From an uncultured SAR86 cluster bacterium (GTDB lineage Bacteria > Pseudomonadota > Gammaproteobacteria > Magnimaribacterales > D2472), in contig CABXXT010000012.1 of assembly GCA_902516285.1 (NCBI GenBank), forward strand, positions 1-35,356: a stretch of DNA of 35,356 nt, given 5' to 3'. The position numbers were made by a program, and so were the translations under genes. Numbering within the stretch: the stretch's first letter is position 1; the number at the start of each line of letters is the position of its first letter. The notes below the pieces were generated by a model. It had not been told where the DNA came from. It did no database searches and saw only the letters and a program-made list of their open reading frames with translations. Positions 29,166 through 35,356 of the stretch are shown piece by piece.

Positions 29166-32027
29166 ATGTTTAATCTTGAAGATCAAAAATATATAAAATT
29201 ACTAGACCTTAATGCACAAATATATAACGAATCTAATTTTAATTGCAAGCATATTCATTTAGATTCTAAAAGTAATGAAAAAGTTTTTATGGTTGCTTTC
29301 AGAACAATCCCAGAGGACTCAACTGGTGTTGCTCACATTTTAGAGCACACAGCCTTGTGCGGATCAAAAAAGTATCCGGTTAGAGATCCTTTTTTTATGA
29401 TGATAAGAAGGTCTTTAAATACTTTCATGAATGCTTTCACGTCAAGCGATTGGACGGCCTATCCTTTCGCAACGCAAAATGAAAAAGATTTTAATAATTT
29501 ACTAAGTGTATATTTAGATTCTTCATTTTTTCCAAATCTCGATCAGTTAGATTTCTTACAAGAAGGACATAGATTAGAATTTAAAGAAAATATAATTGAT
29601 AACGATCTCGAAATTAAAGGTGTTGTATTTAATGAAATGAAAGGCGCTATGAGCTCAATATCTAGTCAGCTCTGGCATGGTATGTCTAAACATTTATATT
29701 CCTCATCTACTTACAAACATAATAGTGGTGGCGATCCAGAAGCAATTATTGATCTTACTCATGATTATTTAGTTAATTTTCATAAGAAGCATTACCACCC
29801 CTCAAATGCAACCTTTTTCACATTTGGTGATATTGATCCAAAAGAAATTCAAGAGTTTATAAATATTAATGTATTACAGGAGTTTACTCCTTCCTCAGAA
29901 AAAATATTTGTTGAAAACGAGGAAAGAATTACATCTCCAAAAACTGTCAAAGAATATTACAATCCACTACCAAATGATGAAGATAATCATCATGTGGTTT
30001 TAAGTTGGCTGCTTGGTGAAAGCCATAATCCTGTAGAATTACTAGAGTCCTATTTAATGTCAAATATTCTCTTAGATAATTCTGCTTCTCCTCTAAGAAG
30101 TGTTCTAGAAAATACTGATTTAGGTAAATCCTTATCTCCTCTTACAGGCTTAGAGTCTGATCACAAAGAATTGGTTTTTGCAGCGGGCCTTGAAGGTGTG
30201 TCAAAAAATCAGCAACAAAAAGTTGAGGAACTTATTATATCTTGTTTAAAAGATGTGGTGAATAAGGGAATTTCTAAAGAATTAATTGATTCCTCATTAC
30301 ATCAGTTAGAAATAAAACAAAAAGAGATTACAGGATCTGGTATGCCATATGGTCTTCAAATCATGCTAAGTTGCTTGCCTGCATGTATTCATAATGACGA
30401 TCCTATTAAAGTTTTAGATCTAGATTCATCATTTAAAATTTTGAAAAAAAATATTCAAACTGATAAGTATGTTGAAAATCTTATTAAAAAAAAGTTGATA
30501 GACAATAATCATAGACTTAACTATTCTCTTGTGCCGGATGTTGATTTTAATAAAAAGAGTGAGGCAATTATACAAGATAAAGTCCAGGATAAAGCAAGTA
30601 AGCTTTCAGCTGATGATAAAAATCAATTAGTTAGCCTTGCAAACGATCTTAAGTACAGGCAAGAAAAACATGATGACCCTGAGATACTTCCTAAGGTTAC
30701 TAAGTCAGATATTCCAGAAACAAGATCATTTGCAAAGGCAAAAATAGTAACCTCTAATTCTTCAGAAAATCATTATTATAAAGCTGGAACTAATGGAATT
30801 ACCTATCATTCAATGATATTTGAATGTGATAATTTAACAGATCAAGAATTTGCAATGACTTCTTTATATGCAAATACTCTTACTGATATTGGTTTAAATG
30901 ATAAGAATTATGAGGAAATTCAAAAATTACAATCTTCAATAACTGGAGGTATATCAGCAAACTTTATGTTAATTCCTCAAGCTAATAGAGAGCACAAAAT
31001 AGCATTAAAAATTAGCTCAAGGTCCTTAGAAAAAAATGAAGCTGCAATGCAGATGCTTATGAGTAACACTGTTACTGAAGCTAGTTTTAATGAAAAAAAG
31101 AGAATCAAAGATATACTTAATTTTATTGCTTCAAGCAATGAAAGATCTCTTATACAAAATGGACATGTGCTTTCAATGAGTAATGCAGCAGCTCAAATCA
31201 ACAATATATCTGCCTCTAATGATATTGTTTCTGGAATTAACTTTATAAAGAACACAAACTTACTTCTTAAAGATATTGATAAAGGTAAAAATTTAGAAAA
31301 TTATATTGGAATTTTTAAAAGCATAAGAGATAAAATTAATCACAGTCCCTCTTATACATTTACTGCATCCTCTCTTGAGTTTGAGAAATCTAATCTTAAT
31401 CTAAATAATGATAGCGATATATTACAAGTTACCAATCAAACTTTCCCAGATATTCAAAATGATTCAATTGCCTGGATTACGGGTGCGCAAGTTTGTTATT
31501 GTGCAGAAGCTTTTGCAACTGTTGGCTCTTCTCACGAGGATGCCGCGGCACTTACCGTTCTTGGTGCTGTTCTGAGGAATGGGTATCTCCATTCAGCAAT
31601 TCGTGAAAAAGGAGGTGCTTATGGATCAGGCGCCATTCAAGATTCAAAAAACAAAGTATTTAAATTTTTCTCTTACCGTGACCCAAGGTGTGGAGATACC
31701 TTCAATGACTTTAAAAAATCAAGGGAGTGGTCATTAAAGAACATAACCCAAGCTCAATTAGATGAAGGCATACTTGGTGTAGTATCAAGTATAGATAAAC
31801 CATTATCACCATCTGGTGAAGCTATGAATGATTTCTCAAATAATATAGATAACAGAGATCAAACTAAAAGACTTAAGTTTAGATCTAATGTCAAGGAATG
31901 CAGTGTTGACGATCTTGTTAGAGTTTCCAGCAAATATTTATTCAACGAATCAAAAAAATCTCTAATAGCAGGAGAAAGTTATAATGATGAGATTAAGAGA
32001 TTAGGTTTTAAGATCAAAAATATTTAA
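29166..32027 (+). CDS. PreP-like M16C zinc metallopeptidase
   Basis: 953 residues, the usual size for presequence-protease-type M16C enzymes with both halves in one chain. The inverted zinc motif is H57-I-L-E-H61, with the third ligand E157 in VVFNEMKGAMSS. The block LCGSKKYPVRDPFFMMIRRSLNTFMNAFTSSDWTAYP is diagnostic of the PreP group. The C-terminal half carries REKGGAYGSGA, the conserved substrate-closing region. No signal peptide is seen, so it is probably cytoplasmic and degrades short unstructured peptides. It ends interlocked with the convergent SLT lipoprotein gene (TTAA). Confidence 0.92.
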   Translation: MFNLEDQKYIKLLDLNAQIYNESNFNCKHIHLDSKSNEKVFMVAFRTIPEDSTGVAHILEHTALCGSKKYPVRDPFFMMIRRSLNTFMNAFTSSDWTAYPFATQNEKDFNNLLSVYLDSSFFPNLDQLDFLQEGHRLEFKENIIDNDLEIKGVVFNEMKGAMSSISSQLWHGMSKHLYSSSTYKHNSGGDPEAIIDLTHDYLVNFHKKHYHPSNATFFTFGDIDPKEIQEFININVLQEFTPSSEKIFVENEERITSPKTVKEYYNPLPNDEDNHHVVLSWLLGESHNPVELLESYLMSNILLDNSASPLRSVLENTDLGKSLSPLTGLESDHKELVFAAGLEGVSKNQQQKVEELIISCLKDVVNKGISKELIDSSLHQLEIKQKEITGSGMPYGLQIMLSCLPACIHNDDPIKVLDLDSSFKILKKNIQTDKYVENLIKKKLIDNNHRLNYSLVPDVDFNKKSEAIIQDKVQDKASKLSADDKNQLVSLANDLKYRQEKHDDPEILPKVTKSDIPETRSFAKAKIVTSNSSENHYYKAGTNGITYHSMIFECDNLTDQEFAMTSLYANTLTDIGLNDKNYEEIQKLQSSITGGISANFMLIPQANREHKIALKISSRSLEKNEAAMQMLMSNTVTEASFNEKKRIKDILNFIASSNERSLIQNGHVLSMSNAAAQINNISASNDIVSGINFIKNTNLLLKDIDKGKNLENYIGIFKSIRDKINHSPSYTFTASSLEFEKSNLNLNNDSDILQVTNQTFPDIQNDSIAWITGAQVCYCAEAFATVGSSHEDAAALTVLGAVLRNGYLHSAIREKGGAYGSGAIQDSKNKVFKFFSYRDPRCGDTFNDFKKSREWSLKNITQAQLDEGILGVVSSIDKPLSPSGEAMNDFSNNIDNRDQTKRLKFRSNVKECSVDDLVRVSSKYLFNESKKSLIAGESYNDEIKRLGFKIKNI

Positions 32028-32635
32028 AAAAAGAAAAACCATTTTCTTTTTAGCTCTTTTGAACATCCCCAATATTGTTGTTGATACTTTGTAGATCTTG
32101 TTTGCACCCTATCAGCAACTTTTATTAACCACTGTTTTTTTCTGTATGTCTTCTTTTTGAATCCTGTGTAACCTTCGTGATATGCAAGATATAGTGATCT
32201 TGCATCTGTTCTTTCAAAGCCTTGATAGTATCCTTTACTCGCATACCAACCTATAAAGTCTGCAGAGTCCTTAAAGTCTTTTCTATTTGCTCTACTGTTA
32301 CCAGTTTCATCACGATAATCATCCCAAGTTTTAGTTAAAGCTTGTGAATAGCCCACAGACGAGGATGGTCTTTTCCAAGGTATAAATCCTAGAACCTTTT
32401 GCCTTTCAGGTCTTGCATCTGCTCTATAGCTTGATTCCTGAAAAACAAAAGACATCAAAACATATGGAGGAATCTTCCATCTTTTTTCTGCCCTTATTGC
32501 AGCGTTATACCAACTCCTTTTTTCTTTAAAGATCATACAAATATTATCTGGATTCTCCGGTGGCCTGACTGCGCAAGATTGGATTACTAAGAAAGCTAAG
32601 CCTGTGACAAAAAATTTTAAATTAAATTTTTTCAT
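32024..32635 (-). CDS. SLT-fold lipoprotein (possible lytic transglycosylase)
   Basis: 203 residues. Lipobox VIQSC (C21) and a short domain with the lysozyme-like pattern: the expected catalytic Glu is E67 in FVFQESSYRADARP, followed by SVGYSQALTKTWDDYR and YLAYHEGYTGF. It probably cleaves or binds peptidoglycan from the outer-membrane side. The family has inactive members, so activity is not certain. A TTG at 32644 is in frame, but AGAGGA is 10 nt before the ATG at 32635, which I take as the start. It overlaps the ligase stop by 14 nt and so belongs to the smc-zipA-ligase unit. The C terminus is basic and ends WFFFF. Confidence 0.83.
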   Translation of the reverse strand: MKKFNLKFFVTGLAFLVIQSCAVRPPENPDNICMIFKEKRSWYNAAIRAEKRWKIPPYVLMSFVFQESSYRADARPERQKVLGFIPWKRPSSSVGYSQALTKTWDDYRDETGNSRANRKDFKDSADFIGWYASKGYYQGFERTDARSLYLAYHEGYTGFKKKTYRKKQWLIKVADRVQTRSTKYQQQYWGCSKELKRKWFFFF

Positions 32636-33908
32636 CTTTTTCAAATCCTCTAAAATTCTTAAATCTTGGGAATCTTAGGCTATAAAATTCGCCTTCAATA
32701 CTTTTTGTAATTGCATCAGCTCTGATTTCAATCAATCTTCCAATAAGCTTATCTTTCAATCTCCAGAACTTTTCTCTATCATCATCTGTCAATCCGCTGC
32801 CAACACTTAGAGAAAAAAACTTACCATCATCTTTTCCCTCAACCTGAAATGCGCCTAACTTACCTTCATGTTTTCCAGTCCCTTCTTGTATGTTAATAAT
32901 TTTAAGAGTGACCTCAATGAATGGTTTTATCTTTAGCCAAGCATGGCTTCTTTTACATTCATAGAAATTATCACATGGCTTTATCATAAGTCCCTCAAAG
33001 CCTTTTTCTAATGCATCTTTATTCATGACTGCAAATTGATTTTGACCTTCATCACTATCAAAATTAATTATTTCAAAATCTACTAACTTAATTACATTAT
33101 CAAAATCTTTTGATAAATTATTCAACTCATTTCTTCTATCTAGAGAGTTTAGTTTGCTTTTACCTGCATTAAATTCTTTCAAAGGTAGCATATCAAAAAG
33201 TGCTAAGAATGCATCATCAGTTTCAGCTCCAGATTTTCGATAAACTTGTTTCATCAGCGCTTGGAAATCATCACTCATAACTTCGCCATCAAAAACTAAA
33301 TTATTAAACTGTTTTTTACTTAGTGAGTTTTCTATATGAGGAAAATTATTGAATATCTTTCCATTTCTACTGTAAAGTGTAGCCTTTCCATTTTTTACAA
33401 TTGCTATCACCCTAACACCATCGTATTTATATTCTACAAGACAGTCACCATTAATTTTTTTTGGATGTTTTGCACCATCATGAGCCAACATACAAGAAAA
33501 AACTGGTACTCTGAAATCAATATCCATTCTTTTTGCAACATTATTTACAGTTTTTTGACTTACACCACATCTAAGATCTTTAATTAAAATCCTTCTATAC
33601 CAATTACTCCATTGAATCTCTGTTGACTTCTCCATTAATTCAATAATTAAATCTCTGGCAGCATGGCCAGTTTTTTCTCTATTAATCATTAAATTTACTG
33701 AGTCTTTAAAAGTATTCCAATCCAAACCCTTACCTTTTGAATTATGTTCAGGAACTTGCTTAACACCAAAAGTAACAAGAGGATCAAGGCACATAGATAG
33801 TCCTTCTTGAAAAGTGACGCTTTGTAAATTTTTTTCGACTATAGCCTCTTTAAATAATCTGCTGTTATCACTTTCCAATTCTTTAATAATATTCCAGGGA
33901 TCTTCCAT
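32622..33908 (-). CDS. ATP-dependent DNA ligase (phage/T4-like)
   Basis: 428 residues. Motif I is EYKYDGVR with adenylated K161; motif III is VFDGEV, motif IV FEGLMIK, motif V WLKIKP, and an OB-fold tail ends RFPRFKNFR. NAD+-dependent LigA has KLDG, zinc-finger, HhH and BRCT parts, none of which is present, so this is a nucleotidyl-transferase ligase using ATP. An N-terminal helical domain of ~150 residues (FGVKQVPEHNSKGKG, LRCGVSQKTVNNVAKR) resembles T4-type ligases. It seals nicks in DNA. It sits 9 nt after zipA, the place where Pseudomonas-type genomes have ligA, and overlaps the SLT gene. Composition resembles its neighbours, so any transfer is old. Confidence 0.9.
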   Translation of the reverse strand: MEDPWNIIKELESDNSRLFKEAIVEKNLQSVTFQEGLSMCLDPLVTFGVKQVPEHNSKGKGLDWNTFKDSVNLMINREKTGHAARDLIIELMEKSTEIQWSNWYRRILIKDLRCGVSQKTVNNVAKRMDIDFRVPVFSCMLAHDGAKHPKKINGDCLVEYKYDGVRVIAIVKNGKATLYSRNGKIFNNFPHIENSLSKKQFNNLVFDGEVMSDDFQALMKQVYRKSGAETDDAFLALFDMLPLKEFNAGKSKLNSLDRRNELNNLSKDFDNVIKLVDFEIINFDSDEGQNQFAVMNKDALEKGFEGLMIKPCDNFYECKRSHAWLKIKPFIEVTLKIINIQEGTGKHEGKLGAFQVEGKDDGKFFSLSVGSGLTDDDREKFWRLKDKLIGRLIEIRADAITKSIEGEFYSLRFPRFKNFRGFEKDEKI

Positions 33909-33917
33909 AAAAGGTAC

Positions 33918-34529
33918 CTAACTCACTGAACGCTCTTCGAGTTGTTTTAACCTCGCAATATCTTGCGCACGAGACTCCATATGTGAAATCATTTGTTTTG
34001 TTATAGGTGTTCTTTCTTCATCACAAAGTGTGGCATAAAACTTATCGGTAAATTGAAGTGAAAATTCAATCATTTCTTTCAATATGCTTGGCGCATCAGT
34101 AACTGTATTTAAGTCAGCAACAAATACAATTGCAAAGGTCTTAGTATCTTCATCAAATATTCCAGGTGAAATTGCATTAATGACTCTAAATTTTTCTGAG
34201 CCATCTTCATCAAAGAAAGAAAAATAACCATCATTAATTTTTCCACCATAATTCATTAAAAATCCAAACACTTGCTCAATTTCATAAAAAGATTTATCGA
34301 CAGAAATAAGGTTTAAAATGGCGAGTTCTTGTTTATTTTCTTTAACTTCAAAATCAAAAGTTTGCTGATTTTCTTTCTTTGGTTGAGAAGACTCTTCTAA
34401 ATTTGAAACAGTTTCAATCTTTACTTTAAGCTTTCCAGAACTTGAAATTTTTCTTACATATAAAAAAACAATGACTAAAAAAAATAAGGTAGCTAGTCCA
34501 ATTAAATATAATTCAGAATTTGTACTCAT
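33918..34529 (-). CDS. zipA: Cell division protein ZipA
   Basis: 203 residues. An N-terminal membrane helix (LYLIGLATLFFLVIVFLYV) is followed by a basic and then Glu/Gln-rich linker and the C-terminal FtsZ-binding domain: ILNLISVDKSFYEIEQVFGFL, YFSFFDEDGSEKFRVINAISPGIFD, and the end ATLCDEERTPITKQMISHMESRAQDI. ZipA ties FtsZ to the membrane in gammaproteobacteria, so the gene is also a taxonomic marker. The linker is much shorter than in E. coli (328 residues in total), in keeping with a compact genome. It starts 3 nt after smc. Confidence 0.9.
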   Translation of the reverse strand: MSTNSELYLIGLATLFFLVIVFLYVRKISSSGKLKVKIETVSNLEESSQPKKENQQTFDFEVKENKQELAILNLISVDKSFYEIEQVFGFLMNYGGKINDGYFSFFDEDGSEKFRVINAISPGIFDEDTKTFAIVFVADLNTVTDAPSILKEMIEFSLQFTDKFYATLCDEERTPITKQMISHMESRAQDIARLKQLEERSVS

Positions 34530-34532
34530 TTA

Positions 34533-35356
34533 TCACAATTCAGCTAATTTAATAGCTTGGTTTACGTCAACAGAAACCATTCTTGAAACTCCAGCTTCTT
34601 GCATGGTTACTCCCATTAAAATATCACTTCTTTCCATAGATACTTTATTATGTGTGATAAATATAAATTGTACATTTTTAGACATATCTTCAACCATATT
34701 TATAAATCTAAGCGTATTTAAGTCATCTAATGGAGCGTCTACTTCATCTAGTAAACAGAAAGGTGCAGGATTTAAATCAAATATTGAGAATACTAAAGCC
34801 AAAGCTGTAAGTGCTTTCTCCCCTCCAGATAACTGAGATATTGATGAATTTTTTTTGCCTGGAGGTCTAGCCATTAATACAACACCTGCATGCAAAGGAT
34901 CATCATCTGTTAATGTAAGCTCAGCAACTCCTCCCCCAAATAGCTTCGGAAATACTTCTTTTAGTCTCTCATTTACTGCGTCAAAACTGTCTTTAAAGAT
35001 TGTTTTAGTTTCGTTATCAATTTTCTTTATAGCCGAGGTCAATTTCTCAAGAGCTTCAGTTAGGTCATTATATTGAGAGTCGAGTTCTTCTTTTCTCTTT
35101 GATTCCTCTTCAATCTCTTCAGGTGCAGCTAAGTTTATTGCTCCAAGCTTAATTATTTTTGATTCAACATCTGTTAGCTTGTTATCAATATCCTCTAAAG
35201 TTAATTCCTCATAATCCTCACTATTAATATGTTCGATATCAAGACCAGCTTGAACAATTTTTTTATTAGAGTTTTCTAAATTAATTTCATAGGTTTTTAA
35301 TTCAAGTCTTACATTAGTTGTTTTTTCAATAAGAGATTTTGAATCAAGATCTGCGA
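34533..35356 (-). CDS. smc: Chromosome segregation protein SMC, C-terminal part (cut by window edge)
   Basis: The frame is open to the right edge, so about 273 C-terminal residues are present. The coiled-coil return arm (LGAINLAAPEE, KRKEELDSQYNDL) leads to the C-terminal ATPase lobe with signature LSGGEK, Walker B FCLLDEVDAPLD, and the H-motif FITHNK. SMC dimers compact and segregate the chromosome by ATP-driven loop extrusion. A TTG at 35042 could be mistaken for a start; the reading frame and SMC homology continue well upstream. It leads the unit smc-zipA-ligase-SLT. Confidence 0.95.
   Translation of the reverse strand, partial: ADLDSKSLIEKTTNVRLELKTYEINLENSNKKIVQAGLDIEHINSEDYEELTLEDIDNKLTDVESKIIKLGAINLAAPEEIEEESKRKEELDSQYNDLTEALEKLTSAIKKIDNETKTIFKDSFDAVNERLKEVFPKLFGGGVAELTLTDDDPLHAGVVLMARPPGKKNSSISQLSGGEKALTALALVFSIFDLNPAPFCLLDEVDAPLDDLNTLRFINMVEDMSKNVQFIFITHNKVSMERSDILMGVTMQEAGVSRMVSVDVNQAIKLAEL

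Follow-up and report, generated by a model that had tools for sequence, protein, structure and literature searches.

In SAR86, an abundant marine lineage of gammaproteobacteria, a phage-type ATP-dependent DNA ligase (ADL) has very probably entered the order, displaced the gene for the NAD+-dependent ligase LigA in its own slot, spread between lineages and come to act as the sole ligase. The case studied here is a stretch of 35,356 nucleotides (the window), which is the entire contig C12 (CABXXT010000012.1) of a 1.08-Mb draft genome of the SAR86 order that is 81% complete (GCA_902516285.1). The ADL gene of the window (32622..33908, minus strand) is an intact open reading frame of 428 amino acids and the sole DNA ligase gene found. 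Bacterial ADLs are described in a 2016 review as occurring "always in addition to" LigA (PMC5052709). We found no earlier report of LigA displacement in SAR86 in the open-licence literature, and the main text of a 2024 comparative genomics paper on SAR86 does not discuss DNA ligases (PMC11582366).

A phage-type ligase and its relatives

A preliminary description of the window had proposed an ATP-dependent ligase with four quoted motifs in the slot adjoining zipA, and all four were located by script: KYDGVR at residue 161, FDGEVM at 206, EGLMIK at 305 and RFPRF at 412. Motif I (residues 161-166; 33411..33428) contains the adenylated lysine K161 and is invariant in SAR86 and phage homologues, and motif IV (EGLMIK) spans residues 305-310 (32979..32996). 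With nucleotidyltransferase motifs I-V, the KxDG lysine nucleophile and EG(L/V)MIK, the protein belongs to the ATP-dependent DNA ligase superfamily. Pfam recognises a nucleotidyltransferase domain (DNA_ligase_A_M, 2.4e-21; residues 149-328, 32925..33464) and an OB domain (DNA_ligase_OB_2, 1e-11; residues 342-420, 32649..32885). The profile of PHROG_114, the phage ATP-dependent DNA ligase family, covers residues 6-424 (E=3.8e-93), and the best match among solved structures, Pmar-Lig of Prochlorococcus (6RAU, E=1e-130), spans residues 7-428. Because both matches are full-length, the ADL comprises the same domains as Pmar/T4-type ligases, namely DNA-binding, nucleotidyltransferase and OB; the N-terminal region (approximately residues 1-130; 33519..33908) aligns with the helical DNA-binding domain of Pmar-Lig, and the OB domain is similarly spare. 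The earlier label "T4-like" thus holds for the architecture and not for kinship, since among characterised enzymes Pmar-Lig is the closest, and its nearest relatives of all are ligases of uncultured marine phages.

Other ligase classes fit less well. None of the LigA domains (DNA_ligase_aden, OB, HhH, BRCT) was found by Pfam in the window's ADL, while all four are present in the LigA of the relative G140. The polymerase and phosphoesterase domains of LigD were likewise absent (Pfam, NCBIfam), and curated NCBIfam models, among them that of LigD, scored far below cut-off. Assignment to Lig E was rejected on the basis of length and layout, the protein having 428 residues and an N-terminal region of DNA-binding-domain type, in contrast to Lig E, a minimal ligase of nucleotidyltransferase and OB domains with a leader peptide; the N-terminal DNA-binding domain of Pmar-Lig is absent from Lig E (PMC6698739).

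Close cellular relatives of the ADL were found in SAR86 only (69-98% identity) when approximately 85,000 species genomes were scanned with two short peptide patterns, a scan that would miss Pmar-Lig-like relatives; the next-best cellular matches were archaeal ligases at 25-31% identity. Marine viral contigs yielded 80 relatives at 53-63% identity; of the two such contigs examined, one (L150) has T4-like clamp loader and polymerase genes and the other (L042) T4-like polynucleotide kinase and RNA ligase genes. The ligase tree groups the SAR86 ADLs in a single clade (SH-aLRT 98) next to phage sequences, from which they differ by fixed residues at three sites only (H347, F354 and L388). A search for SAR86-specific adaptation against the phage homologues revealed no obvious clamp motif; Pmar-type ligases are described as having no T4 clamp-binding loop (PMC6698739). 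A more distant ligase, 31% identical to that of the window and annotated "RNA ligase family protein", is encoded on the 56-kb Marinobacter plasmid phiTHAF39, which is named as a phage (L256).

The gene likely moved from phage to host. The reverse, an ADL that arose in SAR86 or was first acquired by it and was then picked up from there by marine phages, would fit the marine provenance of the phage relatives and their degree of identity. It would also draw on the weak deep rooting of the ADL tree, where root support is only 68% and the outgroups are very long, so that the phage-to-host direction is not proven. We nevertheless consider the reverse unlikely, because the phage sequences show greater diversity and hold the deepest branches, the family at large belongs to phages (PHROG_114; 2187 phage records matched), and the cellular genomes recovered by the pattern scan hold close relatives in SAR86 only.

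Exchange of ligase genes at one slot

The order smc-zipA-ligase, also pointed out in the preliminary description, is present in the window on the minus strand. The 3' part of smc (34533..35354; SMC_N 1e-28, TIGR02168) is cut by the contig end and is followed by zipA (33918..34529; ZipA_C 2.6e-11), the ADL gene and, as the downstream slot gene, a lytic transglycosylase lipoprotein of the SLT_4 family (32024..32644; open reading frame and Pfam); the interval 32622-34529 highlighted earlier comprises the ligase and zipA. A divergent M16 peptidase-like gene of 953 amino acids (29166..32027, plus strand) forms the outer flank. The zipA gene is conserved in LigA-bearing and ADL-bearing genomes, and the M16 gene is common to both in most genera of the family concerned (f1). 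The order smc-zipA-ADL-SLT-M16 was found at 43 ADL loci and smc-zipA-LigA-SLT at 34 LigA loci, with M16 next in 26 of the latter. Both ligase genes abut zipA and overlap or abut the start of the transglycosylase gene, the overlap being often 23 bp for LigA and 1-23 bp for ADL (in the window 23 bp, or 14 bp if translation starts at the ATG three codons in). Since relatives with LigA have it in this very slot, the ADL represents displacement in place, as had been proposed, and not an accessory insertion. Two further observations concern the locus: in genus g3 (L046 and other loci) no M16 gene lies beside the slot and a lipoprotein-like gene directly follows the transglycosylase gene, and in G084 (L062) many frameshifts interrupt the slot genes, LigA, SMC and M16 among them, which suggests an error-rich long-read assembly.

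Across 203 genomes of the SAR86 order, LigA was found in 132 and ADL in 43, with an overlap of one genome (G129). ADL is confined to five of the ten genera of f1 (g1, g6, g7, g8 and g9), and the other three SAR86 families carry LigA. The replacement is clade-wide but patchy, which the preliminary description had not foreseen, nor had it foreseen that the slot changed ligase type repeatedly: in a tree built from SMC and M16, two flanking proteins, supported branches force at least six changes. Within f1, the LigA tree follows the genera and pairwise LigA identity tracks that of the flanks (r=0.96), which, together with its presence in the other three families, is as expected for an ancestral, vertically inherited gene. 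For pairwise ADL identity the correlation with the flanks is looser (r=0.82), and g6-g9 pairs stand out as 0.11 too similar.

The most clear-cut case is G083, which shows a gene-exact transfer of the ADL between SAR86 genera. Its flanking proteins resemble those of its own genus g6 (SMC 84%, ZipA 67%, SLT 89% and M16 77% identity), whereas its ADL is 88% identical to that of the g9 genome G137 and falls within the g9 clade of the ADL tree. At the DNA level, the change maps close to the gene ends: the transglycosylase gene starts out g9-like (signal peptide) and is mostly g6-like thereafter. In the flank tree, the LigA-bearing G126 and G099 lie among ADL-bearing species of g1; they may have reverted to LigA or may have kept it while their sisters gained ADL.

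A single ancient displacement followed by simple vertical inheritance would account for the one clade formed by the SAR86 ADLs and for the ADL tree broadly following the flank tree within g1 and g9. This is very unlikely, however, given that ADL genera are interleaved with LigA genera in a way that forces the type changes described above, that the ADL of G083 is g9-like despite g6 flanks, and that LigA in g1, g4, g6 and g9 looks vertically inherited. We favor a model in which the phage-type ADL, after displacing ligA between zipA and the transglycosylase gene, would have passed from one SAR86 lineage to another as a cassette the size of a gene, homologous recombination in the conserved flanks being the most likely means. 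The essential slot would thus have two alleles, ligA and the ADL gene, that are not homologous to each other. We tentatively extend this to a long-lived, reversible polymorphism, in which the two ligases might be interchangeable alleles family-wide, swapped in both directions (e.g. in G126 and G099) by flank recombination and perhaps maintained because selection changes over time, for example through phage attack or NAD+-depleting defence.

Absence of LigA and role of the ligase

The suggestion that ligA might be lost was borne out. Profile searches detected neither the LigA adenylation domain (PF01653) nor its OB domain (PF03120) in the window's own genome and 13 ADL-clade relatives; 12 of these 14 genomes have a completeness of at least 90%. 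Both profiles matched in 11 of 14 control genomes. The LigA-less set includes two single-contig genomes, G093 and the complete chromosome G089 (D2474-A1-1, CP097973.1). The ADL profile PF01068 gave exactly one match per genome wherever it was found in the 14 genomes; it was unmatched in two drafts, G114 and G119, the latter with a contig end inside the ADL gene. As far as the genomes examined show, LigA is gone in ADL-bearing SAR86. For comparison, LigA is present in 367 of 377 gammaproteobacterial genomes at 95% completeness; the ten without it are two SAR86 genomes, two genomes of 0.3-0.4 Mb and six drafts at 95-98%, two of which have PF01068 matches in long open frames of 645 and 839 amino acids. 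The two small genomes, single contigs of the same class (G217 and G336), gave no match to LigA or to an ATP-dependent ligase and are possibly symbionts that have lost their own ligase.

The one apparent overlap, the ADL-bearing metagenome-assembled genome (MAG) G129, was rejected as a genuine two-ligase genome. Its LigA-like piece of 184 amino acids lies outside the slot at a contig end (C125; L058, 5941-6493), is only 30% identical to SAR86 LigA and is probably of phage or contaminant origin. Seventeen f1 genomes with neither ligase were checked, and assembly gaps at the slot probably account for them, because 16 of them also lack a transglycosylase match and the remaining one has this gene 1.1 kb from a contig end.

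That the ADL might be an extra repair enzyme, with LigA located elsewhere or missed, would be in line with precedent, since the bacterial ADLs of the 2016 review are all accessory (PMC5052709) and Pmar-Lig itself coexists with LigA in Prochlorococcus (PMC6698739). This is highly improbable for SAR86 in view of the absence of LigA families from single-contig and near-complete ADL genomes in searches that recovered them in most controls, the position of the ADL in LigA's own slot and the near-perfect mutual exclusion of the two ligases over the 203 genomes. Binning of phage contigs into SAR86, conceivable because many of the genomes are MAGs or single-cell assemblies, is refuted by contig structure, as the ADL lies between SAR86 smc, zipA and transglycosylase genes on the same contig in 43 loci, occurs in single-cell genomes as well as a complete chromosome, and none of the marine phage contigs bearing ADL relatives carries these flanks.

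The ADL is under purifying selection, with dN/dS between close pairs (0.035-0.096) in the range of conserved neighbour genes. No Ku was found in the ten genomes searched, so the ADL is not a partner in non-homologous end joining. Being the only ligase found in genomes that need Okazaki fragment sealing, including the complete one, the ADL is predicted from sequence to be the replicative ligase. In nick sealing, Pmar-Lig performs roughly on a par with T4 ligase, but it cannot join blunt ends (PMC6698739), which fits a nick-sealing job for the SAR86 enzyme. The ADL would use ATP to seal Okazaki fragments and to repair nicks by way of lysine-AMP, then DNA-adenylate and then nick sealing, and would encircle DNA by its N-terminal helical domain in place of the HhH and BRCT parts of LigA.

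Several points besides the weak root of the ADL tree weigh against our account. The trees come from short searches and carry no bootstrap values, and the switch count uses genes adjacent to the slot itself. The window's draft is 81% complete, so that the absence of LigA there rests on slot occupancy and on its relatives. In G101 (AG-422-O05, L056), the ADL gene carries a 1-bp deletion; this is likely a sequencing, amplification or assembly error, because the neighbouring M16 gene has a comparable 1-bp indel (relative to G116), but loss of function may have occurred in this genome.

The preliminary description had also raised NAD economy, and here the only possible test gave no support. If LigA were the main source of NMN, the NMN-recycling gene pncC (CinA C-domain, PF02464) might vanish together with LigA. 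Strong PncC matches were found only in families f2 and f3, f1 and f4 having weak matches only in LigA and ADL genomes alike, and the distribution of PF02464 within f1 did not correlate with ligase type. These weak matches lie in open frames of similar length that are widespread in f1 and f4, typical stand-alone PncC being restricted to f2 and f3; in one of them (G094; L227, 267-1376) a weak CinA-like domain is fused with a cytidylyltransferase-like domain.

Relation to known ligases and implications

The SAR86 ADL combines features of several known systems. It shares the three-domain layout of Prochlorococcus marinus Pmar-Lig (6RAU/6RAR) but, unlike that enzyme, is the only ligase and resides in LigA's slot. 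With T4 gp30 and the other PHROG_114 phage ligases it shares the family profile, and the ligase genes of its closest phage relatives have genes for clamp loader, polymerase, polynucleotide kinase or RNA ligase nearby; in contrast to these, the SAR86 ADL is a chromosomal, vertically maintained, single-copy host gene. Slot, neighbours and tight coupling to the downstream gene are the same as for gammaproteobacterial LigA of the smc-zipA-ligA cluster, and so, presumably, is the cellular job, although fold arrangement and cofactor differ. The accessory ligases Lig B, C, D and E have the ATP-dependent nucleotidyltransferase core in common with it, and Lig E also the OB_2 Pfam family, but the SAR86 ADL is not accompanied by Ku, has an N-terminal DNA-binding domain that Lig E lacks, and is not accessory.

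SAR86 thus breaks the rule that ADLs occur only beside LigA, and does so repeatedly at one locus. This makes LigA unsafe as a universal bacterial marker gene. Three questions also become testable: whether an ATP ligase of phage type is able to sustain bacterial replication in nature, what accounts for the near universality of LigA elsewhere, and how one essential gene can give way to another, non-homologous one while avoiding a lethal intermediate.
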